This document shows, piece after piece, positions 4,480-37,391 of a stretch of DNA of 37,391 bases. A program made the position numbers and the translations under genes. This DNA is from Akkermansiaceae bacterium. GTDB lineage: Bacteria > Verrucomicrobiota > Verrucomicrobiia > Verrucomicrobiales > Akkermansiaceae. The notes beneath the pieces were generated by a model, which saw only the letters and a program-made list of their open reading frames with translations, had not been told where the DNA came from and made no database searches. How positions within the stretch are numbered: the stretch's first letter is position 1; each line of letters starts with the position of its first letter. Where the stretch lies: assembly GCA_029253285.1 (NCBI GenBank), contig JAQWZU010000161.1, positions 1-37,391 on the forward strand, given 5' to 3'.

Positions 4480-4504
4480 AGAACCCAATCCAACCAATTT
4501 CACC

Positions 4505-5791: not shown

Positions 5792-5809
5792 ACAGGAATC
5801 ATCCTAATC

Positions 5810-8446: not shown

Positions 8447-8520
8447 TTTTCACAGACCATCAAGTTTTTGAATTGGTTTCCCACCAAATAACGCCACCCT
8501 TGGGAAAGAGACCTTAAGAA

Positions 8521-8661
8521 ATGCCGACCCTGAATCGAATTCGAAAACCCCGCTTCGAGATTAAGAATGAGGGATTCTCTGAAAAATGTGGGCAGGTCGA
8601 AGCCCCACCGGAAGTCTATCGATACAGCCATCTCATCAAAACCAACCCAAGCTCCAAATAA
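8521..8661 (+). CDS. Possible 46-residue ORF between cytochrome genes
   Basis: In the 229-bp gap between the two DUF1592 genes, ATG 8521 opens a 46-codon frame ending at TAA 8659-8661, with a purine-rich GGGAAAGAGA about ten bases upstream. The product is basic and polar, with no signal peptide, membrane segment or recognisable domain. It could be a small leader peptide for the downstream cytochrome gene or chance. Nothing beyond openness and a possible ribosome-binding site supports it. Confidence 0.18.
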   Translation: MPTLNRIRKPRFEIKNEGFSEKCGQVEAPPEVYRYSHLIKTNPSSK

Positions 8662-8675
8662 AGAAGAGAAGACTT

Positions 8676-11600
8676 ATGCGTTTTTCAACAAAAGGAAGCT
8701 CAATCGCGGTGACCGTTTGGCTGAGTTGTGTCGGCAACTCTGCCAAGGCCGATGACTTGCCGGAATCGCTGAATCTTCTTATCGAAAATCACTGCGTCGA
8801 TTGTCATGACGACTTCGACCAGAAAGGCGGATTGGATCTGCTTTCCCTGAAATGGGATCTGGAGGATCCCCACCTCGCCGAACGGTGGGTGAAGGTCTAT
8901 GATCAGATCGCATCCGGCGAAATGCCGCCTAAGAAAAAAAGCAAACTGGAAGATGCCGAGAGGCAAACGGTCTTGCGGAATTTGGCACGAGAAATCACGG
9001 CGTCCCAGGAGGCGAAAGCCCAAAAATATGGACGCTCTGTTTCACGACGAGTCAATCGCTTCGAGTACGAAAACATCGTTCGCGATTTACTCCATGATCC
9101 CTACCTGAAAATTGCTGATCGCATTCCTCTGGATGGAGAAGTCCTTGGCTTTGCCAAAGTCGGGACAGCTCTCGATGTTTCGCATGTTCAAGTCGACGCC
9201 TACCTCGACGTGGCTGAGTATTCACTTCGGCGGGCGCTTGATTTTCCCGAGAAAAAACCCAAGTCGACATCCCAACGACTCTACGCGCGGGAGCAGGGAC
9301 GAATGTGGGCCGGCGGAGGGAATGCCGCCTGGACTCGATTTTCGCTGGCTCTCGATGGATTGGAAATCAATGACAGGGCTTCTTTCGTGAAACGGGGTCT
9401 CGACCGTAAAAAGAAGTTACAAGCGATCGGAGTCGTTGTGGATGATTCGGAAGCGGAACGTGACGGACCATGGAATCAATCCACCCGTCGCCCCAATCAT
9501 TTCGGCAGGCACTACCTGGCAAACGCGAAAGGGAAGGGCTCGCACTCGATCACGTGGAAAGCCGCTTTACCAAAACCCGGCGTCTACGAAGTGCGAGCCA
9601 GTTTCTGTGGAGGAGAGAACCTCGCGAGTAATGCTCGATATGTCATTCGCCACGCAAAGGGGGAAAGTCGCGTTCTTGTCGACCAGAGTGCCAAGCCAAC
9701 GATTGATGACCTCTGGTTTCCGTTGGGGCGATTTGACTTCGAGGAAAATGCCGAGGTTTTTCTGACCGATAAAGGAGCCAACAACTGGATCATCGCGGAT
9801 GCCATCCAGTTTGCGCCTTTCAACGACCTGAATAAAAAAGCGCCCATTGCATCACCCAATCTGGAGGATGCCTCCACGGCGATTTTCCGCGGAGCCTATA
9901 CTCCTTTTTACTACGGGTTTGACGGATTCAAGGCTCCGGTTCGCGGTCACTACAAATTTCGCGTGAAGGCTCGTTCGGTGATCCGGCATACCGACTATGT
10001 TGATTGGGAAGGCGACAAGAAGCCTCGTTTTTATCCCGACCTGGTTCTCGACGCCTCAAGGAAGTTTCCCACCCCGGTGAACGACCGCATCAGTCCCGGC
10101 AAACGCAGTGAGCCGGTTAAAGTATACTCATCCACACTGGATGAACCGAACACCCAAAGCACCCTACCCATCGGCACTTTCGAGGCGTCACCGGATGCCC
10201 CGGAAGTTTACAAGCTCGACGGCTTTCTGGAAAAGGGCGGCATGGTGAAACTTGACTGCATGCGCCTGCCTTCGCCCATGGTGCCGGCCATGCCTCATAC
10301 CATCCAAAAGATTGATTCCGACGGTTATCCCGGTGTCGCCTTCCATTGGATGGAGGTGGAAGGGCCGCTTGTCGGGGAATGGCCACCGGCTTCCTACCGG
10401 GCCTTGTTCGGAGACCTGCCATTCACCCGGAAAGGGAAACATGTTGTCGCCCTGTCCGAAGAACCTCTCAAAGATGCCGCCAAGGTGCTTGCCCGATTCA
10501 TGGAGCGCGCCTATCGACGTCCGGTTACAGAGAAGGAATTCAATCGATTTTATCAGTATGCCAAAGGTCTCCTAAATAAAACGGAATTTACCGAGGCCAT
10601 GATCGCGACCTACTCCGCAGTCCTTGCTTCGCCTGAATTACTGTTCCAATGCAGCCAACCCGGAGAACTGGATGGTTTCGCTTTGGTCGAACGACTCTCC
10701 CTCTTCCTTGGGGAATCGCTGCCGGATGACACGCTGCGCAAGCTGGCGCGCGATGGGTCTCTGCGTGAATCCGAAAACCTCAAACAACAAGTCGATCGGC
10801 TCATCGCAAAGCCGGAGTTCGATCGCTTTGTTAGGGAGTTTCTCAACTCCTGGCTCAAGATGGATGAAATTAATGATACCGATCCGGATCGGGAACTCTA
10901 CCCGGAGTACGCCGGCGATTGGTGGCTGGTCAATTCGATGGTGAAAGAAACTCAGCTTTACTTCGCCGACCTGGTCATCAACAACCGGCCGGCGGCGAAT
11001 GTCATCGATTCCGACTACACCTTTCTCGACGAACGATTGGCCCGGCACTATGGCGTCGACGATTTGCAAGGAGCTGGTTTCAAACGCACTCCGCTTCCTC
11101 CGCAAAGCCCCTATGGAGGCATCCTGACCCAGGCATCGGTGCTGAAGGTGACCGCCAACGGAACCGTGACTTCTCCCGTCCTGCGTGGAGTCTATGTTCT
11201 GGAAAGACTGCTCGGCTATCATCCGTCTCCTCCCCCACCGTCCGTGCCTGCAGTGGAGCCCGACATCCGGGGGGCTGCCACCATTCGTGAGCTGCTGGCG
11301 AAGCATCGCGAGGATGCCAGCTGTGCCGGATGCCATGCAAAGATTGATCCTCCCGGGTTCGCCCTGGAAAGCTTTGATGTCATGGGACGCTGGCGCGACA
11401 ACTACCGTTCGCTCGGCGAGGGATCGAAACGAATCAAAGGAGTCGGCCGGAGTGGTAACGAGTTTGTCCACTTTATCGGTCAACCTGTCGATGCGTCCGG
11501 TCGCTTGAGCGAAGGGAAGGAGTTTGCCGATATTATTGAATTCAAAAAACTCCTTTTGCAGGACAAGGAAGTGATCGCCCGAAATCTCGTTGAGCAACTG

Positions 11601-11744
11601 GTAGTCTACGCCACAGGAGCGCCGGTGGGATTCGCCGACCGCAAAGAGGTCGATGCGATTTTGGAAAAGACGAAAGGGTCAGAATACGGTGTTCGAAGTA
11701 TCATCCACGCCATTGTGCAGAGTCCGCTATTTTTGAAAAAATGA
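8676..11744 (+). CDS. Diheme DUF1592-type cytochrome with inserted golvesin/CBM-like domain (module B)
   Basis: The 1022-residue secreted protein starts at ATG 8676, preceded by the purine-rich AAGAAGAGAAG. The in-frame ATG 90 bp upstream would put a non-signal sequence first. A signal peptide ends near SAKA. The first heme motif is CVDCH (40-44), then GEMPPKKK, DUF1587 (RRVNRFEYENIVRDLL, from about 122), a long middle region, DUF1595 (from about 607), DUF1592 (about 665-800), DUF1588 (about 811-910, with second heme CAGCH at 883-887 and KIDPPGFALESFD) and DUF1585. The middle region holds a segment at about 288-382 (SHSITWKAALPKPGVYEVRAS ... ADAIQF) that resembles golvesin C-terminal/xanthan-lyase-type beta-sandwich domains. 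This makes the protein about 140 residues longer than its module A homologue. It lies 13 bp before its DUF1552 partner. Confidence 0.9.
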   Translation: MRFSTKGSSIAVTVWLSCVGNSAKADDLPESLNLLIENHCVDCHDDFDQKGGLDLLSLKWDLEDPHLAERWVKVYDQIASGEMPPKKKSKLEDAERQTVLRNLAREITASQEAKAQKYGRSVSRRVNRFEYENIVRDLLHDPYLKIADRIPLDGEVLGFAKVGTALDVSHVQVDAYLDVAEYSLRRALDFPEKKPKSTSQRLYAREQGRMWAGGGNAAWTRFSLALDGLEINDRASFVKRGLDRKKKLQAIGVVVDDSEAERDGPWNQSTRRPNHFGRHYLANAKGKGSHSITWKAALPKPGVYEVRASFCGGENLASNARYVIRHAKGESRVLVDQSAKPTIDDLWFPLGRFDFEENAEVFLTDKGANNWIIADAIQFAPFNDLNKKAPIASPNLEDASTAIFRGAYTPFYYGFDGFKAPVRGHYKFRVKARSVIRHTDYVDWEGDKKPRFYPDLVLDASRKFPTPVNDRISPGKRSEPVKVYSSTLDEPNTQSTLPIGTFEASPDAPEVYKLDGFLEKGGMVKLDCMRLPSPMVPAMPHTIQKIDSDGYPGVAFHWMEVEGPLVGEWPPASYRALFGDLPFTRKGKHVVALSEEPLKDAAKVLARFMERAYRRPVTEKEFNRFYQYAKGLLNKTEFTEAMIATYSAVLASPELLFQCSQPGELDGFALVERLSLFLGESLPDDTLRKLARDGSLRESENLKQQVDRLIAKPEFDRFVREFLNSWLKMDEINDTDPDRELYPEYAGDWWLVNSMVKETQLYFADLVINNRPAANVIDSDYTFLDERLARHYGVDDLQGAGFKRTPLPPQSPYGGILTQASVLKVTANGTVTSPVLRGVYVLERLLGYHPSPPPPSVPAVEPDIRGAATIRELLAKHREDASCAGCHAKIDPPGFALESFDVMGRWRDNYRSLGEGSKRIKGVGRSGNEFVHFIGQPVDASGRLSEGKEFADIIEFKKLLLQDKEVIARNLVEQLVVYATGAPVGFADRKEVDAILEKTKGSEYGVRSIIHAIVQSPLFLKK

Positions 11745-11757
11745 GATCAGAGAAACA

Positions 11758-13014
11758 ATGAAAACCAACCGCAGAACTTTCCTTCGGGCTGCCGGAATCA
11801 CGCTGGGGCTTCCGGTCCTTGAGTCATTCGGCGCTACTGCCCCAGACAAGATCTCGCCGCGGCGTATGATCGCTATCAACCAGGATCTAGGTTTCATTCC
11901 AAAGTTGTTTTTCCCAAAAGGTGAAGGCCGCAACTATGAACCTTCGAATTATTTGGAGAAGATCGCTGCTCACAGGGATCAATTCACCGTTTTCAGCGGC
12001 TTGTCCCATCCCGGAGTCGACGGTGGACACCGGGCTGACAAGTCATTTCTGACCGCGGCCCCGCACCCGGGACGAGCGAGCTTTCGCAATACCATTTCGC
12101 TGGACCAGCTGATTGCCAACGAAGTCGGACACGAAACCCGGTTCCGTTCTCTTTCTCTCTCAATCAATGATCCGAGAAGCCTGTCTTACACTCAGGCTGG
12201 AGTGGAGATCCCAACTATCAAGAGTGCCTCCGAGCTATACAAAAAGATGTTCCTACAAGGAGATCAGAAAGCGATGCGGGAGCAGGTCGAGCGACTCAAG
12301 CGCCGGGGCAGCATCCTTGATGTGGTGATGGGGCAGACCAGTGATCTCAACAAACGGGTTAGTGGCTCCGATCGCGAGCGTATTGATCAATTCCAAACCG
12401 CGGTTCGCAGTCTCGAACAACGCATGACTGAAGCACAGGCCTGGGAAAGGCTTCCCAAACCCAAGGCCGAAGAAGAAATGCCGGATTATCCTTCTGACAA
12501 AAAGCAATTCTTCGAAATGATCCGCATGATGAATGACATGTCGCGGCTCGCCCTACAGACCGATTCCACAAGGGTGATTACTTTATTTTTAGGGAGTGTA
12601 AGAACGCCGGGAGTGAATCTCGATGATGGGCGTTCCATCGGCGGATACCACAACATTTCTCATCACGGAAAAGATGAGAATAAATTGAAACAGCTCGCCG
12701 AGATCGAAGTTGGACAAATGGAGTTGCTCAATGATTTATTGCAAGACCTCAAAGATATCGAAGAGGCAGATGGCACTCTACTCGATCACACCATGTTGCT
12801 CTATGGTTGCCACATGGGAGATGCCAACATTCACAACAACGTCAACCTCCCGGTCATTCTTGCCGGCGGTGGTTTTCAACATGGGCAGCATTTGAAGTTT
12901 AACGATCAGATCAATAGCCCTCTGTGCAATGTCTTCGTCAGCATGCTGCAGAAGATGGGGCTGGAGAATGACCGCTTCGCGAGCAGCACCGGAACTCTTA
13001 CGGGGCTCTCTTAA
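11758..13014 (+). CDS. DUF1552 family exported protein (module B)
   Basis: The 418-residue protein starts MKTNRRTFLRAAGITLGLP, a twin-arginine signal with RR at 5-6. Family landmarks are ISPRRMIAINQDLG, FFPKGEGRNYEPSNYLE, the HRDQFTVFSGLSHPGVDGGH block, SFRNTISLDQLIA, the helical linker ERIDQFQTAVRSLEQRM, LQTDSTRVITLF, GYHNISHHGK and LLDHTMLLYGCHMG near the C-terminus. It shares the GRNYE/VFSGL-type subgroup features with the module C copy more than with the module A copy. Here the gene order is cytochrome first, then DUF1552, opposite to modules A and C. It is probably cotranscribed with the cytochrome gene 13 bp upstream. The function is not established. Confidence 0.9.
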   Translation: MKTNRRTFLRAAGITLGLPVLESFGATAPDKISPRRMIAINQDLGFIPKLFFPKGEGRNYEPSNYLEKIAAHRDQFTVFSGLSHPGVDGGHRADKSFLTAAPHPGRASFRNTISLDQLIANEVGHETRFRSLSLSINDPRSLSYTQAGVEIPTIKSASELYKKMFLQGDQKAMREQVERLKRRGSILDVVMGQTSDLNKRVSGSDRERIDQFQTAVRSLEQRMTEAQAWERLPKPKAEEEMPDYPSDKKQFFEMIRMMNDMSRLALQTDSTRVITLFLGSVRTPGVNLDDGRSIGGYHNISHHGKDENKLKQLAEIEVGQMELLNDLLQDLKDIEEADGTLLDHTMLLYGCHMGDANIHNNVNLPVILAGGGFQHGQHLKFNDQINSPLCNVFVSMLQKMGLENDRFASSTGTLTGLS

Positions 13015-15451: not shown

Positions 15452-15601
15452 ATTGATCTGGTCTGAATTAGGGATGCCAAAAGCATCACTCCCTTGCGGT
15501 ATGGGCAGCGCCATCAGATACCAGCCGGCATTACCACTCCTTGATGATTGCGCTGGCCCTGTCATCGGGTAGGCTTTCCGGCCATACTCCTTATCTCATC
15601 G

Positions 15602-18600
15602 ATGCGTATCCTCTTTTATTTCCGCCAATGCCTCTTCGCGATGTTGGCTCCCATCACCGCTCTGGCTGCACCCTACTCGGTCGAGGTTCTCGCGGACAAC
15701 CCGGTGGCCTTTTACCGGTTCAACGAAACTCCCGGAGCCACCGTGGCACTCGATGCCTCCCCCAACGGAAACCACGCCACTTACGCCGGCACCGTTCTGC
15801 CGACGCTCGGAATCACCGGACTGACCGAGGAAGCTGATAGCGCAGCCGAATTCAGCGGAAGCTCCACAAATAAACCGCACGTCCTTACTCCGCCTCTTTT
15901 CAATCCGGCTCTCACGAGTTTCACCATCGAAGCCCTTTTCAGAACCGACGCCGCGACCCAGCAAGCAGTTGTCCAGCAAGATGGCGGTCTGGGACGCACT
16001 CTCCTCTTCCTCTCTTCAAATGGCGGGGACATTCGCAGTTTTCTGGGTGGCACAACAAGCAGCAGCGGCACGTCAGCCGTCGTGGGACAGGTTCACCACG
16101 GGGCTCTCGTTTTCGATGACCCCACCAACACCTTGACCTGGTATATCGACGGAGTTGCCACCGCGACGGGCACGGTCAACCCGGAGTCAACCAACGGAGG
16201 CTTCTTCATCGGTATTCACAAAAACCTCACCAGCAACTATTTCGACGGCGTGATCGATGAGGTTGCCTTTTACACCGATGCCCTCTCAGCCTCGCGCATC
16301 GCCGAGCACGTCGCATCAATGGAAACACCGCCCATCCTAAACTCCTTCACCGGCGCTCCGGTAAGCATCCCGATAGGCGGCAACACAACTCTCGCTTGGG
16401 AAATTGCCCCCGAGGTCACCGCGCTTTCGATCGATCAAAGCGTCGGCGATGTCCTGCCACTCACGAGCAATGGGATCGGTAACGTCAGTGTCTCCCCGGC
16501 GACCACCACGATCTACACCATCACCGCCACCACGCCAAATGGCACCGCAAATGAAACCGTCACGATCTATGTAGACGAGCCAGCCAGCTTCCGCCTCAAT
16601 GAATTCGCCGCCCAAAATGCCGGCCCTTTGGCCGATGAAGACGGAGACGAAACCGATTGGATTGAAATCAAAAACACTGGAAACACTCCGAACGATCTTG
16701 CGGGATTCTACCTTACCGACGATCCCACCAATCTCACCAAGTGGCAGTTCCCCTCCACTGCGCTGAACGATGACGAGCTCTTGCTGGTCTTCGCCTCCGA
16801 CAAAAATCGCGCGGTCTCCGGCTCCGAATTACACACCAATTTCAAGCTCTCTTCCGGCGGCGAATACCTTGCGCTCATCGAGCCCGACGGCGTGACCATT
16901 CACGATGAATTCGGACCAACCTACCCGCCTCAATACGTTGGTAATTCCTACGGCCGTGTCTCCGATGGCAACTCGGGATACTTTGCCGAGCCCACTCCGG
17001 CCGCGGAAAATGGCACCACGACCTTCAGCGGATTCGTCGAAGAAGAAGTGGTCGCCGACATACCTCGTGGATTCTACGACGCTTCATTCCCAGTCGGGCT
17101 CAGCACCACTGATCCCACTCTATCCATCCGTTACACCACGGATGGCTCCCCCCCCACCAACACAAGCGGCATGCTTTACAGCGCGCCGATTTCCATCACC
17201 ACCACGACCATCCTGCGAGCCGCGGCCTTTCGGCCCGGAGAGACGCCTCGGAAAATCACCACGATCACTTACCTCTTCCTCGACGACGTCATCAACCAAC
17301 CCGCCTCCCCAACCGGCTATCCTTCCGTCTGGCAACCCGGCATCAGCGCGGACTACGCCATGACTTCCAGCGTCGCTCCGGACCAAGACATCATCGACGC
17401 CCTCATGGCTCTCCCCACGGTCTCCGTGGCGATGCCCATCGATGATCTTTTCGACAACAACACCGACCCCGCCATCGGTGGCATTTATGCAAACTCCACC
17501 ATCGCCCGTGGCTTCGCCTGGGAACGCGCTTGTTCTGCGGAATTCTTTGGCTTCCCCCACGGTCAGGAATTACAAGTCGACTGCGGAATGCGCGTCTTCG
17601 GCAATGCCAGCCGCTGGACTTCGCGTCCTAAACACAACCTGCGCCTCGTCTTTCGCTCCGCCTACGGCCCGTCGGAACTCGAGTTCCCCGTCTTCGGAAA
17701 CGATGCCTGGCCGGATAAGGTCAACAGCTACCTCCTTCGCGGACAAAATGGCGACTCGTGGTTTCACCCGACCTCAGGCCAACGCAACGAAGCGCTTTAC
17801 ATGCGCGATCAACTCGCCCGCAGCTTGCAACTCGCGATGAACCGACCCGCCAATTTTCAGGAGCACGTTCACCTTTACCTCAACGGAATCTATTGGGGTC
17901 TCTTCCACACTCTTGACCGCAATGAAGACAACTCGATGGCGCAGCGCTTCGGCGGCGCGGAAGAAGATTGGGACGTCATCAAATCGTCCCGCACCAATGG
18001 CATGGAAGCGATCGACGGCGACATCCAAGTTTGGAATTCCATGCTCACTCAAGCCGAAGCCGGTCTCGCCGGAGACGCCGAGTATGCCGCCATGGAACAA
18101 CTAATCGATCTCGACAACTTCATCGATTACCTCCTCGTGAATTTCTACGACGGCAACTCGGATTGGGATGACAACAACTTCCAGGCCGCCCGACGTAAAA
18201 CCGGGGGCGATCGCTGGCGTATTTTCGTATGGGACTCCGAGCGTAGCTTCCTCAGCACCGGAACCAACAGCACGACCAAAAACTTCGCCAACCGCACCAC
18301 CCGCCTGCACACCAAACTCCGGGACAATGCCGAGTATCGCCTGCGCTTTGCCGACCACGTTCACAAGCACTTCTTCAACAACGGCGTGCTGACGCCAAGC
18401 GGCGTCGCCAACGAACTCGATAAATGGATCGCGACCCTCGAATCTCCACTCCTCGCCGAGTCCGCCCGCTGGGGAGATGCGCAACAGGCCAGTCCAATCG
18501 GGCTCACGCAGTGGCAGACCGAGGTCAATTTCCAAAAGAACACCTACATCCCCGGACGCACCGCCACCGTCCTAGGCCAACTCCAATCACAAAGCCTCTA

Positions 18601-19723
18601 CCCATCGGTTACCGCGCCAAGCTTCAACCAACACGGTGGCAATGTGACCTCGGGATTCCAGCTCACCATGACCGCGCCTGCTGGCACGATCTACTACAGT
18701 CTGGATGGCTCTGATCCACGAGATTCCGGTGGCACTATCTCAGCCAACGCAATCGCATACGCTCCGGGTAGCCCGGTTTCGCTCACAACCTCGGTTCTCG
18801 CCAAAGCACGCGCCTTGTCCGGAGGAAGCTGGAGCGCGCTCAACGAAGCGAGCTTCTTCGTCGACACCATTCCCGCCGACAATACCAACCTCGTCGTTTC
18901 CGAGCTCAACTATCACCCGCTTAGCGACGACGATGCCGTCGAGTTCATCGAAGTGATGAACATCGGCGATGATGCCATCGATCTCCGTGGCGTGGAATTC
19001 ATTCGCGGCATCACCTTCGACTTCGATCAAAACGACACCCGCCCGATTTCCGTGCTTGCTCCGGGAGAACACATTGTCCTCGTCGGAAAATCCGCTGACT
19101 TCGCCACGGAATACCCCGGGATTCCCATCGCCGGAGAATTCATCGGCGACCTCTCCAACACCGGAGAAAACATCACGCTCCTCGCCGCCGACGGAAGCAC
19201 GATTAAAGACTTCCGATACAACGACAAACTTCCCTGGTCCACCAGCCCTGACGGCACCGGCCTCACTCTCGTGCTCATCGCACCCAACGAGAATCCCGAT
19301 CACCAACTCGCCTCCTCCTGGCGACCCAGCACCGCAAGCGGAGGCAATCCGACCACCAGCGACGCCATTTCCTTCACCGGAGATCCCAACGCCGATCTCG
19401 ATTCCGATGGCATGACGGCCCTTCTCGAATACGCCCTCGGTACTGAAGACAACGCCCCCAACCTCCCTAACGAAATTTACCTGCTCACCGGCCCGCCGAA
19501 CAATCTCACCATCGTGGTCCAACGAAACCTCGGTGCCGATGATACCATTGTCACCCTGCAAACTTCCCCCGACCTCCAAACCTGGATCAGCGCCGACGCT
19601 CTTCTCGAACTCAGCAACGAGGAAAACCTTGGTAACGGCAAGGCTCGCTACACCTGGTCCCTCCAAGCCTCCGCCGATCCAGGCACCCAACTCTTCGTCC
19701 GTATCCGTGTCGAATTGAGATAA
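15602..19723 (+). CDS. Large secreted LamG / lamin-tail / CotH-kinase protein
   Basis: The 1373-residue protein starts at ATG 15602, which gives a signal peptide ending ITALAAP. Domains in order: LamG-like jelly roll (about 20-245, VAFYRFNE ... FDGVIDEVAFY); Ig-like segment (about 250-325); lamin-tail domain (about 330-470, FRLNEFAAQN, DWIEIKNTGN); chitobiase C-terminal-type domain (about 480-560, IRYTTDGSPPT); CotH kinase-like domain (about 600-930, with HLYLNGIYWGLF, NFYDGNSDWDDNN and WRIFVWDSERSF); a second chitobiase C-type domain (about 1003-1090, IYYSLDGSDP); a second lamin-tail domain (about 1097-1256); and a tail starting DLDSDGMTALLEYALGTED that is common in verrucomicrobial secreted proteins. 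CotH domains phosphorylate spore-coat proteins in Bacillus; here a surface or secreted target is inferred. No sorting signal is seen at the C-terminus. Confidence 0.88.
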   Translation: MRILFYFRQCLFAMLAPITALAAPYSVEVLADNPVAFYRFNETPGATVALDASPNGNHATYAGTVLPTLGITGLTEEADSAAEFSGSSTNKPHVLTPPLFNPALTSFTIEALFRTDAATQQAVVQQDGGLGRTLLFLSSNGGDIRSFLGGTTSSSGTSAVVGQVHHGALVFDDPTNTLTWYIDGVATATGTVNPESTNGGFFIGIHKNLTSNYFDGVIDEVAFYTDALSASRIAEHVASMETPPILNSFTGAPVSIPIGGNTTLAWEIAPEVTALSIDQSVGDVLPLTSNGIGNVSVSPATTTIYTITATTPNGTANETVTIYVDEPASFRLNEFAAQNAGPLADEDGDETDWIEIKNTGNTPNDLAGFYLTDDPTNLTKWQFPSTALNDDELLLVFASDKNRAVSGSELHTNFKLSSGGEYLALIEPDGVTIHDEFGPTYPPQYVGNSYGRVSDGNSGYFAEPTPAAENGTTTFSGFVEEEVVADIPRGFYDASFPVGLSTTDPTLSIRYTTDGSPPTNTSGMLYSAPISITTTTILRAAAFRPGETPRKITTITYLFLDDVINQPASPTGYPSVWQPGISADYAMTSSVAPDQDIIDALMALPTVSVAMPIDDLFDNNTDPAIGGIYANSTIARGFAWERACSAEFFGFPHGQELQVDCGMRVFGNASRWTSRPKHNLRLVFRSAYGPSELEFPVFGNDAWPDKVNSYLLRGQNGDSWFHPTSGQRNEALYMRDQLARSLQLAMNRPANFQEHVHLYLNGIYWGLFHTLDRNEDNSMAQRFGGAEEDWDVIKSSRTNGMEAIDGDIQVWNSMLTQAEAGLAGDAEYAAMEQLIDLDNFIDYLLVNFYDGNSDWDDNNFQAARRKTGGDRWRIFVWDSERSFLSTGTNSTTKNFANRTTRLHTKLRDNAEYRLRFADHVHKHFFNNGVLTPSGVANELDKWIATLESPLLAESARWGDAQQASPIGLTQWQTEVNFQKNTYIPGRTATVLGQLQSQSLYPSVTAPSFNQHGGNVTSGFQLTMTAPAGTIYYSLDGSDPRDSGGTISANAIAYAPGSPVSLTTSVLAKARALSGGSWSALNEASFFVDTIPADNTNLVVSELNYHPLSDDDAVEFIEVMNIGDDAIDLRGVEFIRGITFDFDQNDTRPISVLAPGEHIVLVGKSADFATEYPGIPIAGEFIGDLSNTGENITLLAADGSTIKDFRYNDKLPWSTSPDGTGLTLVLIAPNENPDHQLASSWRPSTASGGNPTTSDAISFTGDPNADLDSDGMTALLEYALGTEDNAPNLPNEIYLLTGPPNNLTIVVQRNLGADDTIVTLQTSPDLQTWISADALLELSNEENLGNGKARYTWSLQASADPGTQLFVRIRVELR

Positions 19724-29650: not shown

Positions 29651-29780
29651 TCCGTTCACCCTCCCTAGTTGCCAGATAAGGACCTTCGAAGCAAGCCGCG
29701 TTGATCCATAGTCGCTAACAAGGCACAAAAAATCGCCTCGCCGGATGGACTTCCTCGGTTGTATCATCCCCGAAATCCCC

Positions 29781-31031
29781 ATGGAAACCTCTTTCACCCG
29801 AAGAAACTTCCTCCGCGCCGGAGGAATTGCCATCGCCCTCCCCTCTCTGGAGTCATTCGCGCAACCCGCGAAAGCCTCCAAGAAACCGGTAAAGCGCATG
29901 ATCTGCCTTTCCAATAACTACGGCGTTTACCAGAAGGCCTTTTTCCCCACCCAAGGCGGTCGCAATTACGAGATGTCGCACACTCTCAAGCCGCTCGAAA
30001 AACATCGCGAGGATTTCACCGTCTTTTCCAATCTCGATCACGGCCTCACCGGCGGACATGCCTGCGTCCCGACTTTCCTCAACGGTATCCGCCCCGACAT
30101 GTCATCCAGCTTCCGCGAAGGCAACATCAGCATGGACCAAAAGGCCGCCGAGTTTGTCGGAGCGGCCACGCGTTATTCCTCCATGACGCTCAAGGTGAAG
30201 GAGAACAACCAAACGAGTTTCACCCGCACCGGCGTGCAGGTTCCTTCCATCGATGTCACCGCGATGTATCGCAAGCTCTTCCTCGAAGACTCAGCCGAAG
30301 CCAAGAAACAAGAAGAGCTGCGCCTGCAACGACACGGCAGCATTCTCGACACCGTTCTCGGAAGAGCCAAGGACGTCAAGAAGGAGCTCAGCAAGCAGGA
30401 TCAGGATAAGTTCACCGAGTATCTCGACTCCGTACGCAGCCTCGAAAAGAAAATCGACCTGCAGCGACCGTGGCTTGATCAGCCGAAGCCAACGACCGAA
30501 ATGGAGGAACCCCGGCCGGCCCGACAGACCGCCGACGAGATGAAAATCATGATGGAGCTGATGGCACTCGCCATCGAAACCGACTCCACCCGTATCATGA
30601 CTCTTGCCAGTGGATTCGCGAATGGCGATTTCGGCTTGAATGGCGGCTACCATGGATTTTCCCATCACGGCGAACTTGCCGAGAAAACAGATGCCCTCAA
30701 ATTAATCGAGGGAAATCAGATCGCGCAGATGGCTTACCTCATCGACCTGCTCAAAGGAAAAGAAGACACTCTCAACGGCGGCACGCTTTTCGATCACACC
30801 ATGATCCTCTACGGATGCGGCATGGCGACGGGAACGCATTCCTGCAAAAATATGCCCCTTGTCCTCGCCGGTGGCGGGTTCAAGCTGGGCGAGCACGTCG
30901 TTCTTCCCGAAGGAAAATTCGAACGCGTGAAAGCCTGCAATCTCCTCCTCTCCATGCTGCAAAATTTCGGGCTGAAAGTTGATCAATTCGGAACAAGCAC
31001 GGGAACCCTGACGGGACTCGAGTGGGCGTGA
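29781..31031 (+). CDS. DUF1552 family exported protein (module C)
   Basis: The 416-residue protein is read from ATG 29781, which places the twin-arginine signal at the N-terminus (METSFTRRNFLRAGGIAIALP, RR at 7-8). Family landmarks are KRMICLSNNYGVYQKAFFP, GGRNYEMSHTLKPLEKHRED, FTVFSNLDHGLTGGHA, the DKFTEYLDSVRSLEKKIDL linker, ETDSTRIMTL, GYHGFSHHGEL and TLFDHTMILYGCGMATG. It resembles the module B copy more than module A. The stop overlaps the next ATG by one base (TGATG), so it leads an operon with the propeller/NIPSNAP protein, the diheme DUF1592 protein and an esterase. It is divergent from the channel gene, with 130 bp between the starts for both promoters. Confidence 0.9.
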   Translation: METSFTRRNFLRAGGIAIALPSLESFAQPAKASKKPVKRMICLSNNYGVYQKAFFPTQGGRNYEMSHTLKPLEKHREDFTVFSNLDHGLTGGHACVPTFLNGIRPDMSSSFREGNISMDQKAAEFVGAATRYSSMTLKVKENNQTSFTRTGVQVPSIDVTAMYRKLFLEDSAEAKKQEELRLQRHGSILDTVLGRAKDVKKELSKQDQDKFTEYLDSVRSLEKKIDLQRPWLDQPKPTTEMEEPRPARQTADEMKIMMELMALAIETDSTRIMTLASGFANGDFGLNGGYHGFSHHGELAEKTDALKLIEGNQIAQMAYLIDLLKGKEDTLNGGTLFDHTMILYGCGMATGTHSCKNMPLVLAGGGFKLGEHVVLPEGKFERVKACNLLLSMLQNFGLKVDQFGTSTGTLTGLEWA

Positions 31032-33187
31032 TGAGGAAAACCTTTCATGCCATTTTCCTGATCGCAGCCGGGCTAGTTCAAGCCAAGGGCCAAGAGCGCT
31101 GGGTGCAAAGTTACGACGCAGGATACACCGATGCCAATGGCGCTTGGGCGGGCGGATCCGAGATGATGCACCTCGCCTCGCACAAGGGAAAGCTCTACGC
31201 CTCCAATGGCTACTGGGTGGATTCCCATTGGGTAATTCCACCCGAGGGCCAACGCCAGTCCGCGCAAGTCTTACGCCTCGATTCAAGTGATGCGCAATGG
31301 CAGGTCGACCTCAAGATGGGAAAGTCCAACGACGACCTCGGCGTGGAATACATGAAGGGCAACATTCTCAAGTCAGTCACCTTCACACGTGACGCCAAGG
31401 GCCAGCCGCTCGCCAAACCGGAATCCCTTCTGGTGATGGCTGCGGGTGCGAATTTCGAACGCGGCGGCGCGGTCTCGGCATGGGTCCGCGATGACTCTAC
31501 GGACAAATGGACGCACACCTTGGTCCGCCATGGCTCGAGTGCCGGCGGAGTTCGCTGGGTGCCGCGCGATATGGAGGTCTATCGCGACAAAGTCACCGGA
31601 GTGGAACGCATCTTCATGTCGCTCGGAAATCCCGGCATCATCTCGGGTGTCTATGACCCCGCCGCTCCCGGCCGCATTCGCTGGGATCGCAATCTGGAGT
31701 ATCCCTTCCTCACCGACGGAAGTTTTCGCACCCGCCCTCTCGGCATCACGAAAGCCAACGGCTCTTTGTTTTTTTCCGAGGGCGATTCGATCTATCAACG
31801 CATCGATGGTGCAAGACCTAGCTACCGCGAGATCTTCGAACTCTTCGAAGACACCGATACCGACGTCGGCGGCATTCGGGGGCTGACTCGCGTCGACAAT
31901 CCGAATGGTAAAGGTGACTCGCTTCTCTTCATCTGGGCTCCCGGCGAGCGATCAGCCAGCGCGGTCAAGCGACTCGATCCCGACGGCAAAGGCGGCTACA
32001 CCTTGCACGATGAAGCCCGCATCATTGATCTGATGAAGGACTACCTCGATGTCGAAGTCACCTACACACTCGGCGCACACAACATGGTTTACCCCTTCAC
32101 TGATCCAGCCACTGGAGAGACCGTTCACATCATCGGCTTTCAGGGGAACATTCGCGGGTCCAAAAATCATCTCCGCTGGAAAGGGAGCGCGCTTTATGCC
32201 GGCGCGCTCTATGCCGTGAGAAAAGCCGATCAGAGCTATCAGGTTCTCGAAGTCAACAACCGCTACAAACCCGGCAAACAACTCCTTATTTCTCCCCGCA
32301 CTTTTTGCGAGTCACCATTCGGCGACAAGGACATCTATATCGCAGGCCATGATTCCAGCTTCAAAAACTCCGACAACATGGCCTGGGTTTTCCGCGCACC
32401 CGAAATGGTGGTCCTCGGATCAACGAAAGCCCTCGATGCTCTCCCGCCCAAACCAAAACCAAAGCCCCCGCAACGCTTACTGGATGGACCAATTTACGAG
32501 CTCCGCATCTACGCCGCCAATGAAGATCGGCTCCATCATTTGGAAAAACGCTTCCGCGAGCACACCGATCGTATTTTCAAGAAACGCGGCCTCAAATCCA
32601 TCGGATACTGGGTTCCCACCGAGGGCCCGGCCAAAAAACGTCGTCGTCTGATCTACATTCTCAAGCACCCTTCGCGCTATACGGCTTATCAAAACTGGAT
32701 TCACTTCAACAACGATGGTGAATGGGACAGAGTTCTCGACGAACCACAGTTTCAGGGACTTCTTTCCGAAAAGCCGACGAGCATCTTCATGAACGAAACG
32801 GATTACTCCTCTCAAGTCCGCAATGCCATCGACCAAAAAGGAGGTGTGTTCGAACTTCGAACTTACGTAACCAACCCGGGCAAGCTCGACGCGCTCAACG
32901 AACGGTTTAAAAACCATACCGCCAAGCTCTTCGCCAAGCATGGCATGAAGAATTTCGGCTACTGGACACCCTTCGACATCCCCGACTCTGCAAACACACT
33001 GATCTATCTCATTCATCACGCCGACCGGAAGCAAGCCGACGCCAATTGGAAGGCCTTTGCCTCCGATCCCACTTGGCAAAAAGCCCGTAAGGAATCCGAG
33101 CGTGATGGCAAAATTCTCGCCCACGCACCCGAGCGCATCTTCCTGCGAGCCCTCGATTTTTCTCCCACTAACCAAGTGAAAAAATGA
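31031..33187 (+). CDS. Secreted beta-propeller protein with two C-terminal NIPSNAP domains
   Basis: The 718-residue protein starts at ATG 31031, coupled to the DUF1552 stop (an in-frame ATG nine bases earlier is also possible). It has a signal peptide (MRKTFHAIFLIAAGLVQAKG). Residues about 25-470 have a propeller-like series of strands (LASHKGKLYASNGYW, VRWVPRDMEVYRD, RIFMSLGNPGIISGVYD, PLGITKANGSLFFSEG). After a Pro/Lys-rich linker (LPPKPKPKPPQ) come two ferredoxin-like NIPSNAP domains (PF07978), at about 486-590 (IYELRIYAANEDRLHHLEKRF) and about 606-710 (VFELRTYVTNPGKLDALNERF). NIPSNAP proteins have varied and poorly known roles. A link to the redox module is inferred from tight coupling on both sides (1-bp and 4-bp overlaps). 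Confidence 0.82.
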   Translation: MRKTFHAIFLIAAGLVQAKGQERWVQSYDAGYTDANGAWAGGSEMMHLASHKGKLYASNGYWVDSHWVIPPEGQRQSAQVLRLDSSDAQWQVDLKMGKSNDDLGVEYMKGNILKSVTFTRDAKGQPLAKPESLLVMAAGANFERGGAVSAWVRDDSTDKWTHTLVRHGSSAGGVRWVPRDMEVYRDKVTGVERIFMSLGNPGIISGVYDPAAPGRIRWDRNLEYPFLTDGSFRTRPLGITKANGSLFFSEGDSIYQRIDGARPSYREIFELFEDTDTDVGGIRGLTRVDNPNGKGDSLLFIWAPGERSASAVKRLDPDGKGGYTLHDEARIIDLMKDYLDVEVTYTLGAHNMVYPFTDPATGETVHIIGFQGNIRGSKNHLRWKGSALYAGALYAVRKADQSYQVLEVNNRYKPGKQLLISPRTFCESPFGDKDIYIAGHDSSFKNSDNMAWVFRAPEMVVLGSTKALDALPPKPKPKPPQRLLDGPIYELRIYAANEDRLHHLEKRFREHTDRIFKKRGLKSIGYWVPTEGPAKKRRRLIYILKHPSRYTAYQNWIHFNNDGEWDRVLDEPQFQGLLSEKPTSIFMNETDYSSQVRNAIDQKGGVFELRTYVTNPGKLDALNERFKNHTAKLFAKHGMKNFGYWTPFDIPDSANTLIYLIHHADRKQADANWKAFASDPTWQKARKESERDGKILAHAPERIFLRALDFSPTNQVKK

Positions 33188-35730
33188 AACGATTATTCCC
33201 AGTTTGGTTTCTCACAAGTCTGCTCGCTTTTGGCGAAGCCGATCCCTCGTTGAACACTCTCGGCCCCTTCCTGAAGAAACACTGCATCGAGTGCCACGGC
33301 CCGGACAAACAAAAGGGCGACTATCGCTTCGACCTTTTGAAAAATGATCTCTCCGACCTGCCAACGCTGGAACTTTGGCAGGGAATTTTGGATCAACTCA
33401 ACCTCGGTGAAATGCCCCCGAAAAAGAAGGAGCAGCCGTCCCGGGAAGAGAGTGCTAAAGTCATCGCCACTCTCACTCCCGCGCTCCAAAAAGCCTACGC
33501 CTCTCAGAAAAGCACCGGCGGGCAGGCCGTCATTCGAAGGCTCAACAAATTCGAACTCCGCAATACCCTGCGTGATTTGTTTTATCTCGATCACCCGGAC
33601 TTTAAACCCACCGTCGTGTCCGGACTTTACGACTTCAATGGCAACGGCATCACGGCGCAAAAAACCATCGAGCCCACACGAAGTTTTCAGGACGACGAAG
33701 AAGCCGAAGGCTTTGACAACATCGGCGACACTTTGGTGATGTCAGACTTCCTCCTCAAGATGCTCATCTCGGCTGCGGAGGAATCGATTGAAATGGCCAC
33801 GAACAACGAGCCCCAAAAGCCCTTCGAAGCAGAAACCTTCACCGCACCCATTTGCACCAAGACTCTGCACGGCGACAGCCTCGACAAACATCAACGCGAC
33901 AATGGAGATCCTTACGATGAGGTTTTCCAGCGCTGGGATCGCTACAACCGGATTGGGCCGGACAAATACCATAAAGGAATTCGTCGTCCCAACAACTACC
34001 GCGTCACAGTCGAGATCTCAGCCCACAATCCGAAAGGGGACAAATGGGGAAACTGGACCGTGAACGAGGGCCGACTCATCCACCACGGCCGCGAAAGCCT
34101 TGATGCTCCCTTCGAAGTCGGTCTTTATCTCGAACGGCACGAACACCTCCGTGGAGAGCAGAAGCATCGCATCGCCCATTGGACTTTGCCTCCGGATGGA
34201 AAGAAGCGAACCTTCTCTTTTGAGACCTGGATTGATAATCCCTGGAGCACGTGGATTGGTTGGGAAAATGGCCCCTGGATTCAACACAACGCCTTCCACA
34301 TCCTCCTCGATCAGTGGTATCCCGAGGATTACAAAAAAATCGACCGAAAGAAAAAGGGCTTCAAGAAAGACGTCGCTGAGATCCTTTTCAAAAAAGGATA
34401 CCTCGGACCTACCTTGCGAGTGCACAAATACCGAATCGAACCTGTTCCCGAAGAGTGGCCACCCAGGAGTCACACCGCCCTCTATGGGAAGGGTTCCATT
34501 AATGAAGCAAATCTCCCGAAGCTTTTCCACGCCTTTGCCGAGCGAGCCTACCGTCGTCCGGTCGATCCTTCGGAAATCAAACCCTTCATCGAACTCACAG
34601 AAAAACTCGAATCCGAAGGAAGCTCACGACAGGAAGCGATGAAAGGCGCCTACACCGCGCTCCTCTGCTCGCCCGACTTTGTCTATCTTCGGCAGAAATC
34701 CGGAAAGCTCGACGACTTCGCACTCGCTTCACGTTTGAGTTATTTCCTTTGGTCATCGATGCCCGACGAGTCCTTGCTCAATCTCGCACGCGCAGGAAAG
34801 CTCTCCGCTCCGGCGGAATTGAATCGCCAGGTCGAGCGTATGCTCAAGGACCCCAAGGCGGCGGCCTTTATCCGCCACTTCCCCGAACGTTGGTTGAAGC
34901 TCCACGAACTCGGTCGCATGGAACCGGATAAGAGGGGACCCTACGGCCACTATTTCCGCGTGAAGGATTTTCTCATTCCTCAAGTCGACGCCTACTTTGG
35001 AGACCTCCTCGAGCGCAATGGGCCAATCCGGGACTTCATCGATTCCGACTACACTTTCATGAACCAACTCCTCGGGGAATTGATCTACAAACAGAAGAGC
35101 CCCGGAGAAAATCTGCGGAAGGTGAAACTGGATGACCCACGGCGCGGAGGACTACTCACTCTGCCCGCCATTATGACCGTCACCTCCAACGGCGTGGAAA
35201 CCTCCCCCATCAATCGGGGCGTCTATGTTCTCGAAAACATTCTCGGTACTCCGCCACCACCGCCGCCGCCCGACGTCGAACCGCTCTCACCCGACTTGCG
35301 CGGAACCACGACACTCAAAGACCAGCTCGCCGCCCACCGGAACCAGGAAGCTTGCCGAAGTTGTCACCAAAAAATCGATCCGATGGGATTTCCGCTGGAA
35401 AATTTCGACCCGATCGGCCGCTGGCGCGATGATTATCCCAAGCTCGATAAGAAGGCCAAAAAGACTCTCCCTGTCGATTCCTCCTCTGTTCTCCCGAATG
35501 GTCGCGAAGTTCAGAATCTCACTGAATACAAAGCGATGCTCCTCGAACGCGAACCACAAGTGGTCCACTGCCTCACCGAAAAAATGCTCACCTACGCCAC
35601 CGGTCGCTTGCTTGAGGTTGGGGACCGGGGTGAAGTCAACCGCATCGTTTCGGAGATGGAGAAAAACGGAAACCGGCTCCGCGATCTCGTTCATCTTATC
35701 GTTAGGAGCGATCTCTTCTTGAACAAGTGA
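33184..35730 (+). CDS. Diheme DUF1587/1595/1592/1588/1585 cytochrome (module C)
   Basis: The 848-residue secreted protein's ATG overlaps the previous stop by four bases (ATGA). A signal peptide ends near FGEAD. The first heme motif is CIECH at 34-38 followed by GPDKQKGDYRFDLL, then GEMPPKKK and DUF1587 (IRRLNKFELRNTLRDLF, from about 116). The middle region contains a long beta-rich part with many Trp residues. DUF1595 starts at about 448 (AERAYRRPVDPSE), DUF1592 at about 508 (FALASRLSYFLWSSMPDE) and DUF1588 at about 653 (RGGLLTLPAIMTVTSNG). The second heme motif CRSCH lies at 724-728 with KIDPMGFPLENFDPIGRW, and DUF1585 closes the protein. As in the other two copies, the PPPPPPDVEPL linker precedes the second heme. 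The substrate is unknown; an extracytoplasmic electron-transfer role is inferred. Confidence 0.92.
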   Translation: MKRLFPVWFLTSLLAFGEADPSLNTLGPFLKKHCIECHGPDKQKGDYRFDLLKNDLSDLPTLELWQGILDQLNLGEMPPKKKEQPSREESAKVIATLTPALQKAYASQKSTGGQAVIRRLNKFELRNTLRDLFYLDHPDFKPTVVSGLYDFNGNGITAQKTIEPTRSFQDDEEAEGFDNIGDTLVMSDFLLKMLISAAEESIEMATNNEPQKPFEAETFTAPICTKTLHGDSLDKHQRDNGDPYDEVFQRWDRYNRIGPDKYHKGIRRPNNYRVTVEISAHNPKGDKWGNWTVNEGRLIHHGRESLDAPFEVGLYLERHEHLRGEQKHRIAHWTLPPDGKKRTFSFETWIDNPWSTWIGWENGPWIQHNAFHILLDQWYPEDYKKIDRKKKGFKKDVAEILFKKGYLGPTLRVHKYRIEPVPEEWPPRSHTALYGKGSINEANLPKLFHAFAERAYRRPVDPSEIKPFIELTEKLESEGSSRQEAMKGAYTALLCSPDFVYLRQKSGKLDDFALASRLSYFLWSSMPDESLLNLARAGKLSAPAELNRQVERMLKDPKAAAFIRHFPERWLKLHELGRMEPDKRGPYGHYFRVKDFLIPQVDAYFGDLLERNGPIRDFIDSDYTFMNQLLGELIYKQKSPGENLRKVKLDDPRRGGLLTLPAIMTVTSNGVETSPINRGVYVLENILGTPPPPPPPDVEPLSPDLRGTTTLKDQLAAHRNQEACRSCHQKIDPMGFPLENFDPIGRWRDDYPKLDKKAKKTLPVDSSSVLPNGREVQNLTEYKAMLLEREPQVVHCLTEKMLTYATGRLLEVGDRGEVNRIVSEMEKNGNRLRDLVHLIVRSDLFLNK

Positions 35731-35756
35731 ATTGCCGACAGCACGCTAAGTTTCCA

Positions 35757-37391
35757 ATGAGAACGACCATTGCTCTGCTCACTATTTTCTTCTGCGAGGC
35801 CTCTATCGAGATTTTTGCGCAGGACGCCCCCCGCACCGTCACTGAGACCTGGGCGGACTACGATCCGCGCGCCGAACCCCTGGAGGTCGAAGTGGTGCGC
35901 GAGGAATCTGACGGAGGAATCATCACCCGCTACGTTCGCTATGTCGTAGGAACCTTTGCCGGAAAGAAGACCAAGGTGGCGGCCTTCTATGCCTTTCCGG
36001 AAAAAGCGAAAGCCTTGCCCGGGATTATTCAGGTTCACGGAGGCGGGCAATTCGCTCGCAAACAATCAGTGCAGTTCTACGCGACCCGTGGCTACGCCGC
36101 GATCGCGGTGAACTGGGGCGAGAAAGCCATTGATCAGGCGGATGATCCCAACACCGACTGGCAAGGAATTCCTGCGGGATTTCTCGACCCAAAACATCAC
36201 AATGGAGTCGAGGCGAGTGAAGGGACGATCCACAGAAAAGCCCATCCATGGAACAGCTCGTGGATTCTCTACGCGGCAGCGACACGACGCGCGATCACTT
36301 TTCTGGAGCAGCAAGCAGAATGCGACGGCGATCGCATTGGCCTTCAGGGACACAGCATGGGTGGACGCCTCACCGTCCTCACCGCAATCGACCCCCGCAT
36401 CAAGGCCGCTTCCCCATCGGTCGGCGGCAGCGGATTTCTCTACACTGACATCGCCGGCATTCCCAACTCGGCCCGACGGATGGCAGCCGGCCCTGAGCGC
36501 GATCTCTACCTAAAAACACTCGCCTGCCAAAACTATTGGCCACTGGTTCGCTGCCCGGTGATGTTTCTTGGCGCTACCAACGACTTCAATTCACCGATGG
36601 AGTTTGTCCTTCGTGGTTTCAACTCCCTGCCTGATGTCAGACAGAGCCGCACTTCCTTCACTCCTCACATGAATCATCGCTTCACCGCCGACAACATGAT
36701 GGCGCGCATTCGCTGGTTTGATACACATTTGAAAAAATCATTCACCTTCCCCGCCACCGCCAAGGCCACTTTGGATTTGAATACTCCCGACGGCATCCCG
36801 GTCTTCACGGTGCGACCTGATCTTTCCGAACCCCACAAACCTGAACGGGTCGAGATTTACTACGGTTATGATCGAGACCCACGCGCCCGCTTTTGGCGTT
36901 CGGCGGAAGTCGAACGCGACGGCAACACCTTTTCGGCACCCTGTCCGGTCATAACCACCGGCGAGCCTTTGTTCGTATTTGCCAACGTCATTTACGAAAC
37001 CGGTGAAAAGATCAAAATGCCACCGGGCTACCGCGATAATTCGCTACTGACAATCACGAGTGAATACCGAAAGGCCTATCCCCACCAACTTCAAAAGGCC
37101 GGGGTGAAAGCGACGGTAAAACGCCAGCGCCTCATCGACAATTTTGCTCATGGATGGCGGGACTGGGCGCGGGTTTCCGAAAACAACCGGGAGCACTGGA
37201 ACTTCGAAACTCACAAGATCAACGACCCCGCCTTTGTCGGCCCAAAAGACGCCAAGCTCGCCTTCGAAATCACCACCACCGAACCCGGCGAAACCTTGGC
37301 CGTGGTCATTGATACCGACCGCTGGCGTGGCTACACCGGTCGCAAGCCCACCCAACATGTTGCCCTGGTGGAATTGGAAACGGCCGGCCCG
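35757..37391 (+). CDS. Secreted alpha/beta-hydrolase (dienelactone hydrolase / acetyl xylan esterase-like), 3' end cut by window
   Basis: ATG 35757, 26 bases after the cytochrome stop, opens a frame that runs 545 codons to the right edge without a stop. Residues 1-22 look like a signal peptide (MRTTIALLTIFFCEASIEIFAQ). An alpha/beta-hydrolase core follows: LPGIIQVHGGGQFARKQ (oxyanion loop), YAAIAVNWG, the nucleophile elbow GHSMGG at about 200-205, a strand with GATNDFNSP (candidate catalytic Asp) and PHMNHRF (candidate His). About 200 residues after the core form a beta-rich C-terminal part (LDLNTPDGIPVFTVRP, VEIYYGYDRDPRARFW). The arrangement resembles secreted acetyl-xylan-esterase/dienelactone-hydrolase proteins of planctomycetes and verrucomicrobia. 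It is probably the last known member of the module C operon and may remove acyl groups from a polysaccharide. Confidence 0.85.
   Translation, partial: MRTTIALLTIFFCEASIEIFAQDAPRTVTETWADYDPRAEPLEVEVVREESDGGIITRYVRYVVGTFAGKKTKVAAFYAFPEKAKALPGIIQVHGGGQFARKQSVQFYATRGYAAIAVNWGEKAIDQADDPNTDWQGIPAGFLDPKHHNGVEASEGTIHRKAHPWNSSWILYAAATRRAITFLEQQAECDGDRIGLQGHSMGGRLTVLTAIDPRIKAASPSVGGSGFLYTDIAGIPNSARRMAAGPERDLYLKTLACQNYWPLVRCPVMFLGATNDFNSPMEFVLRGFNSLPDVRQSRTSFTPHMNHRFTADNMMARIRWFDTHLKKSFTFPATAKATLDLNTPDGIPVFTVRPDLSEPHKPERVEIYYGYDRDPRARFWRSAEVERDGNTFSAPCPVITTGEPLFVFANVIYETGEKIKMPPGYRDNSLLTITSEYRKAYPHQLQKAGVKATVKRQRLIDNFAHGWRDWARVSENNREHWNFETHKINDPAFVGPKDAKLAFEITTTEPGETLAVVIDTDRWRGYTGRKPTQHVALVELETAGP

Follow-up and report, generated by a model that had tools for sequence, protein, structure and literature searches.

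We analysed a 37,391-nucleotide stretch of DNA from an Akkermansiaceae bacterium (GenBank assembly GCA_029253285.1, contig JAQWZU010000161.1; hereafter the window) and found that it encodes a 718-amino-acid protein in which a predicted beta-propeller with an export-like start is fused to two tandem NIPSNAP domains. The join is real and common to many ocean relatives, and is not due to chance. The gene lies between a DUF1552 gene and a DUF1592-type gene, and a sequence-only reading of the window had made its product a stoichiometric partner of that redox pair. Using sequences and predicted models, we document the architecture of the fusion, its spread, an asymmetry between its two NIPSNAP halves, and the occurrence of fusion and DUF1552-DUF1592 pair each without the other. 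On balance we favour as probable an undescribed exported family, with a propeller and an intrachain NIPSNAP pair, that works independently; the DUF1552-DUF1592 pair would be co-expressed with it in one subclade but would form no fixed complex with it. The gene and its parts lie as follows.

31031..33187, forward strand: propeller-NIPSNAP-NIPSNAP fusion gene, 718 amino acids (open reading frame, Pfam and predicted model)
31031..31102, forward strand: signal-peptide-like start, MRKTFHAIFLIAAGLVQAKGQERW (hydropathy score and reading)
31091..32428, forward strand: predicted propeller domain, residues ~21-466 (AlphaFold model and structure alignment)
32492..32800, forward strand: NIPSNAP domain 1, residues ~488-590, the conserved half (Pfam, models and conservation)
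32846..33154, forward strand: NIPSNAP domain 2, residues ~606-708, the variable half (Pfam, models and conservation)

The spread of the fusion was assessed in 84,980 species genomes with two peptide patterns from the family's own propeller, which returned 66 related loci; because the scan was seeded with these patterns, it shows spread and not frequency. Propeller and NIPSNAP domains lay in one open frame in 52 of the 66 fetched loci, all from other records and 60-97% identical to the window over the best propeller segment. The window comes from a 224-contig assembly, and a chimeric open reading frame or assembly join might therefore be suspected; the 52 loci already refute such an artefact, and we regard its probability as practically negligible. 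Most relatives are assigned to Verrucomicrobiota or Planctomycetota, and the few attributed to other phyla may be mislabelled bins. Of 260 family genomes, 21 carried the fusion: eight belong to the window's genus and 13 to a sister genus, where two of the copies, in G460 and G449, are cut or split. The N-terminal part was found in 5 of 288 genomes drawn from the phylum, the window's own genome included. Among the 14 loci without a fusion reading frame, a contig end cuts L164, L169, L176, L182 and L184; L170, L173, L177, L178, L179, L180, L181 and L183 gave a propeller match with no NIPSNAP domain found, and L185 gave a short match only.

Two PF07978 stretches in the product (79.3 bits against a cut-off of 22.3), the propeller model and the recurrence in one frame bear out the proposal that a single gene joins a propeller to tandem NIPSNAP domains. 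Export, proposed in the same reading, agrees with a hydrophobic stretch before the propeller in 51 of the 53 family reading frames scored, propeller-only frames included; export-like starts were judged by hydropathy score and reading rather than with a signal-peptide predictor. The architecture had also been called unusual. It is indeed unnamed in the libraries searched, but it belongs to a conserved marine family. What is new is the family: its exported propeller matches neither Pfam nor NCBIfam, and the NIPSNAP pair joined to it is less conserved in its second half. No Pfam family matched the first ~490 residues, the window's propeller, even at E values up to 1; one of 12 relatives gave a weak Kelch_2 match (E 0.001). 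The 718-amino-acid protein had no match in NCBIfam or PHROGs. Viral origin or phage carriage was considered and set aside, two viral-contig scans having returned no relative. Among the papers listed by literature searches, no title or abstract start dealt with a propeller-NIPSNAP architecture, and no paper combined NIPSNAP, DUF1552 and DUF1592, even two at a time. PMC7081726 describes NIPSNAP domains as enriched in PAUC34f and Poribacteria relative to Latescibacteria.

To characterize the N-terminal part, we used an AlphaFold model of the fusion built from 50 sequences (mean pLDDT 85.7, pTM 0.78). The model places 29 strands between residues 25 and 457, and residues ~21-466 align to propellers with a best Z of 26.7 over 328 residues (rmsd 3.9). 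YncE aligned at Z 26.4, and YncE, WD40 and other propellers at Z 23.8-26.7 among the matches listed. As modelled, this part is a beta-propeller, a circular array of four-stranded blades, and we read the strand count as seven blades. It would share its fold with YncE and WD40-type propellers, but among the matches listed these are only 5-11% identical to it. A search for sequence relatives among solved structures gave weak matches only, the best being poly-N-acetylglucosamine deacetylase chains; two NIPSNAP entries also appeared, 1vqs at E 0.061 and 2ap6 at E 0.41. These matches were not used.

Remote relatives of the propeller are 26-36% identical; those scanned with Pfam carry tandem glyoxalase, esterase-like or EF-hand domains, and none showed NIPSNAP. 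Two glyoxalase domains are fused to the propeller in L029 and L101, L101 also has an esterase-like domain with EF-hands, and L027 has EF-hands alone. Locus L101 encodes in addition a 1551-amino-acid reading frame with sulfatase, FG-GAP, glyoxalase and EF-hand domains. It is possible, though we would not count it as likely, that the propeller is an undescribed exported platform to which bacteria inside and outside the PVC group have repeatedly joined domains that are pseudo-dimeric or act on small molecules; in the NIPSNAP branch, the conserved half would then carry the active pocket and the second half would be a decaying scaffold.

The NIPSNAP pair was modelled separately from the C-terminal 235 residues (mean pLDDT 93.0). 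In the fusion-family alignment, 42 of 50 members matched PF07978 at E 0.01 and 8 rows are propeller-only; these counts are pooled, and the 8 members that do not match are not given individually. The model resembles a dimeric alpha+beta barrel, with Z 12.8 to 5k9f and 12.6 to 1vqy. The NIPSNAP structures 1vqs, 2ap6, 1vqy and 5k9f (Agrobacterium Atu4242/Atu5224 and Burkholderia) align chiefly over the first half, at Z 12.2-12.8 and rmsd 1.6-2.0. Their crystal chains comprise 103-110 residues, whereas here two such domains follow an exported propeller in tandem. Taken together, the halves match sulfur oxygenase reductase at Z 17.8 (220 residues, rmsd 3.1), 2pgc at Z 17.0 and putative monooxygenases at Z 16.4 and 15.8. 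Sulfur oxygenase reductase and the putative ABM-type monooxygenases likewise form a barrel of two ferredoxin-like halves in one chain, at 9-12% identity to the NIPSNAP pair. Since both halves align together to tandem barrels, the two NIPSNAP domains very likely pair within one chain as a pseudo-dimeric alpha+beta barrel.

Secreted-looking tandem-NIPSNAP proteins of about 250-300 amino acids, many with a signal-like start, also occur in Akkermansiaceae; unlike the fusion, they have no propeller. In L131, L132, L134, L136 and L139, the gene for such an unfused pair precedes the fusion by 35-67 nt, and L184, cut by a contig end, belongs with these loci. Loci of this kind form one well-supported clade, in which fused and unfused NIPSNAP pairs are therefore encoded side by side.

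The two NIPSNAP halves differ markedly in conservation. Across 39 full-length fusions, mean pairwise identity is 70.3% for the propeller, 65.4% for NIPSNAP-1 and 52.1% for NIPSNAP-2, and 35 positions in NIPSNAP-1 are at least 97% conserved versus 9 in NIPSNAP-2. Identity of NIPSNAP-2 to the window drops to 30-41% in L137, L138, L142 and L143 (part of the Roseibacillus group) and in L155, L156, L159, L163 and L165, where NIPSNAP-1 holds 53-68%; NIPSNAP-2 is the better conserved half in, for example, L130, L133 and L154. This asymmetric conservation fits one working half and one decayable scaffold half, at least in some lineages.

The alignments raise an alternative: like sulfur oxygenase reductase or coproheme decarboxylase, the NIPSNAP pair could be an enzyme that uses iron or heme, and would then itself be a redox protein. 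Coproheme decarboxylase aligns more weakly, at Z 9.2-9.6. In this enzyme and in chlorite dismutase, the heme pocket lies in one half of a tandem barrel; the likeness of the NIPSNAP pair to them is one of fold alone. The iron site of sulfur oxygenase reductase consists of an HxxxH motif plus a Glu. No HxxxH was seen by eye in residues 487-718, so that the pair does not qualify as a sulfur oxygenase reductase; identity to that enzyme is 9-10%, and H546 in the first half and H663 in the second are the only histidines at least 97% conserved. We consider this alternative unlikely. The fusion is most likely an independent exported protein of the small-molecule-binding or oxygenase type, carried on a propeller, a chemistry that we infer. 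It would act outside the cytoplasm on its own: the role of the propeller may be to bind or position a polymer or ligand, and that of the conserved NIPSNAP half to provide a small-molecule pocket, perhaps monooxygenase-like, with the second half as scaffold. These assignments of function to the propeller and the two halves are tentative.

The position of the fusion relative to its neighbours was then compared between loci. In the window, the flanking features are the following.

29745..31031, forward strand: DUF1552 gene (PF07586, HXXSHH; open reading frame and Pfam)
31029..31033, forward strand: TGATG junction, with one base common to the DUF1552 stop and the fusion start
33184..33187, forward strand: ATGA overlap of the fusion stop with the DUF1592 start
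33184..35730, forward strand: DUF1592-type gene, 848 amino acids, with PSCyt1, PSD3, PSD5, PSD4, PSCyt3 and PSD2 (Pfam)
35727..37391, forward strand: open reading frame after DUF1592, overlapping it by 4 nt and ending at the window edge

Neighbours were called by BLAST, with three DUF1552 and three DUF1592 proteins encoded in the window as references, a comparison that could miss divergent members. At 30 of the 52 fusion loci, all of which extend 1 kb or more to each side, the fusion was directly flanked by neither DUF1552 nor DUF1592. When the whole flanks fetched for these 30 loci were searched by tblastn, one match was obtained, a partial DUF1592 ~3.3 kb upstream in L161. The gene had been described as locked between DUF1552 and DUF1592; the fusion is widespread without them, and that description fails on its own terms. 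A DUF1552 or DUF1592 gene stood next to the fusion on the same strand at 11 of the 52 loci, those in the window's subclade being L121, L122, L123, L124, L125, L126, L127 and L186. The remaining 11 are ten loci with less than 1 kb on a side, plus L163. Neighbouring genes fell into 109 clusters, 35 shared and 74 single, and none of 20 Pfam-scanned neighbour proteins, one of which adjoins the propeller-only locus L170, contained DUF1552 or DUF1592. In L146, a gene three places from the fusion clusters with a DUF1552-like gene of L163, and tblastn found nothing in L146.

Conversely, the pair exists without the fusion. A match of E 1e-150 or stronger to the window's DUF1592 protein was present in 11 of the 260 genomes of the family. 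The fusion stood beside the DUF1592 orthologue in seven of these (G000, G476, G479, G480, G487, G488 and G494); in the other four, DUF1552 and DUF1592 were directly adjacent without it (L187 in G451, L188 in G456, L189 in G484 and L190 in G483), at 75-90% identity to the window for DUF1552 and 72-84% for DUF1592. G451 and G456 have the fusion elsewhere in the genome. In the window's genome, 12 pairings are DUF1552-first, with gaps of 1520-2307 nt between the two domain matches save for the pair around the fusion at 3973 nt, and 17 further pairings are DUF1592-first, with gaps of 752-1450 nt (one PSD4 match was used in two pairings, and three DUF1552 and six PSD4 matches stayed unpaired). A fusion-sized gene inside a pair is therefore exceptional in this genome. 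The fusion adjoins a DUF1552 / PSCyt-PSD gene pair in the window but is no part of that pair, and obligate membership in a DUF1552-DUF1592 module does not hold.

Fusion-free members are intermixed with fusion-bearing ones in the trees. L190 falls with the window's clade in the DUF1592 tree (98/99), and the DUF1552 tree does not settle its placement; L189 and L123 cluster together in both trees (96/98 and 100/98). The mixture points to several gains or losses of the fusion, or to recombination of the region. A single insertion without later losses does not fit these trees; losses, repeated gains or recombination may account for them. A 13-nt repeat (TATGATGCGACGA) at both L124 junctions was considered as an insertion scar and not used; no shared stretch of at least 11 nt was found in L121, L123, L125, L126, L127, L128 or the window.

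The one-base and four-base overlaps reported for the window are exact: the DUF1552 stop TGA (31029-31031) and the fusion ATG (31031) have base 31031 in common, and the four bases ATGA at 33184-33187 hold both the DUF1592 start ATG (33184) and the fusion stop (33185-33187). They are kept in five genomes (the window, L082, L121, L122 and L123). The likely start of the fusion follows the DUF1552 stop by 28-55 nt in L124, L125 and L127, where DUF1592 probably begins 7 nt after the fusion stop. Translational coupling, which the sequence-only reading had asserted, is plausible in the window's genome, which the arrangement suits, but the overlaps give way to short spacers in these three relatives. 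The overlaps are no conserved constraint; the sandwich is the arrangement of one subclade, and the exact overlaps occur in part of it. Nor do overlapping stop and start codons alone imply a complex, because four pairs exist without the fusion. A stoichiometric partnership with the redox pair, locked in by translational coupling, could draw on the overlaps in five genomes and on a DUF1552-fusion-DUF1592 order kept across one subclade; with the pair alone in 4 of 11 genomes, the fusion alone at 30 of 52 loci and the overlaps lost in three relatives, it is very unlikely. In the window's subclade, the fusion is probably co-expressed with the pair, by read-through and, where codons overlap, by translational coupling; this would be shared expression rather than a fixed complex.

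Several points weigh against the reading that we favour. The fusion does not associate with the pair entirely at random: besides the window, eight others have the orthologous sandwich, namely L082, L121, L122, L123, L124, L125, L127 and a site split over L182 and L186, where the two contigs of a single assembly break within the fusion. L125 is near-identical to L127, and the DUF1552 of both was found by tblastn. L126 retains the DUF1592 start, but of its DUF1552 only a remnant is left. Outside that arrangement, a second, unrelated DUF1592 directly follows the fusion in L150 and L151; in L150 a DUF1552 comes next (the L151 contig ends after its DUF1592). In L155 a DUF1592 lies upstream. The scan behind the 11-genome count scored three candidates per genome, and more orthologous pairs may exist. 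No propeller match was found in G483 and G484, which are 87% and 81% complete, so absence of the fusion there is not certain. Finally, a common barrel fold does not fix chemistry, and any substrate, cofactor or activity is putative.

Part of this record would suit a non-obligate helper of an exported PSCyt/DUF1552 catabolic programme, in which no complex forms and a shared substrate pool favours repeated co-location. Besides L150, L151 and L155, this alternative draws on a DUF1552/DUF1592 pair on the opposite strand near L163, on DUF1501 and DUF1549/DUF1553 genes near L131, L139 and L158, on DUF7133-cytochrome c genes beside L157 and L162, and on a GSDH-cytochrome c gene beside L130 and L133. 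In addition, PMC5615132 describes PSCyt genes as paired with families of unknown genes and located near sulfatase and carbohydrate genes. However, neighbours vary between clades, and sulfatases offered no substrate clue. Sulfatase-type genes, counted as neighbour clusters whose representative is a sulfatase, occurred at 13 of 52 loci, which is about the rate, roughly a quarter to a third, expected by chance on our own estimate from one genome (124 sulfatase matches, 123 above the cut-off, in the 4.31 Mb of the window's genome, or one per 35 kb, with a flank of ~12 kb). We regard the helper role as a serious but less likely alternative to an independently working fusion.

Further features of the neighbouring genes were recorded. 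The DUF1552 protein matches PF07586 at 226.8 bits and has an RRNFLRA motif close to its start that looks twin-arginine-like by eye, while its Pfam TAT_signal score of 14.8 bits is under the cut-off of 22.7; a secreted DUF1552 protein is tabulated in PMC2754498, a stress study of Rhodopirellula baltica. The downstream protein, of planctomycete cytochrome/PSD type, matches PF07631 at 119.8 bits and has two CxxCH motifs, CIECH and CRSCH, by eye. The counterpart of the reading frame at 35727-37391 is whole in L081, with 657 amino acids and an acetyl xylan esterase AXE1 match of 23.9 bits against a cut-off of 21; the frames following DUF1592 are of equal length in L121 and L122, and shorter and outside its cluster in L123 and L124. 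At L126:5831-6001, an orthologous DUF1552 upstream of the fusion is reduced to its final codons (GTLTGLEWA-stop, by eye); beyond this remnant stands a DUF1592/DUF1552 pair that is unrelated and divergently transcribed. Elsewhere in the window, positions 4445-13014 hold two more pairs in the order DUF1552, DUF1592, DUF1592, DUF1552, with a sigma-factor-like gene upstream at 2290-2820, and 15548-19723 holds a 1391-amino-acid reading frame with CotH kinase, lamin-tail, laminin-G and chitobiase C-terminal domains. The whole genome (G000, 4.31 Mb) has 34 PSD4 and 32 DUF1552 matches alongside its 124 sulfatase matches.

In conclusion, these comparisons separate a real, undescribed exported family from a tempting operon story. 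The pairs at L187-L190 provide natural comparisons of the DUF1552-DUF1592 pair with and without the fusion, and the fusion family is a defined target for studying the role of exported NIPSNAP domains in marine bacteria. If the propeller does serve as a recurrent exported platform, it would define a class of secreted small-molecule enzymes.

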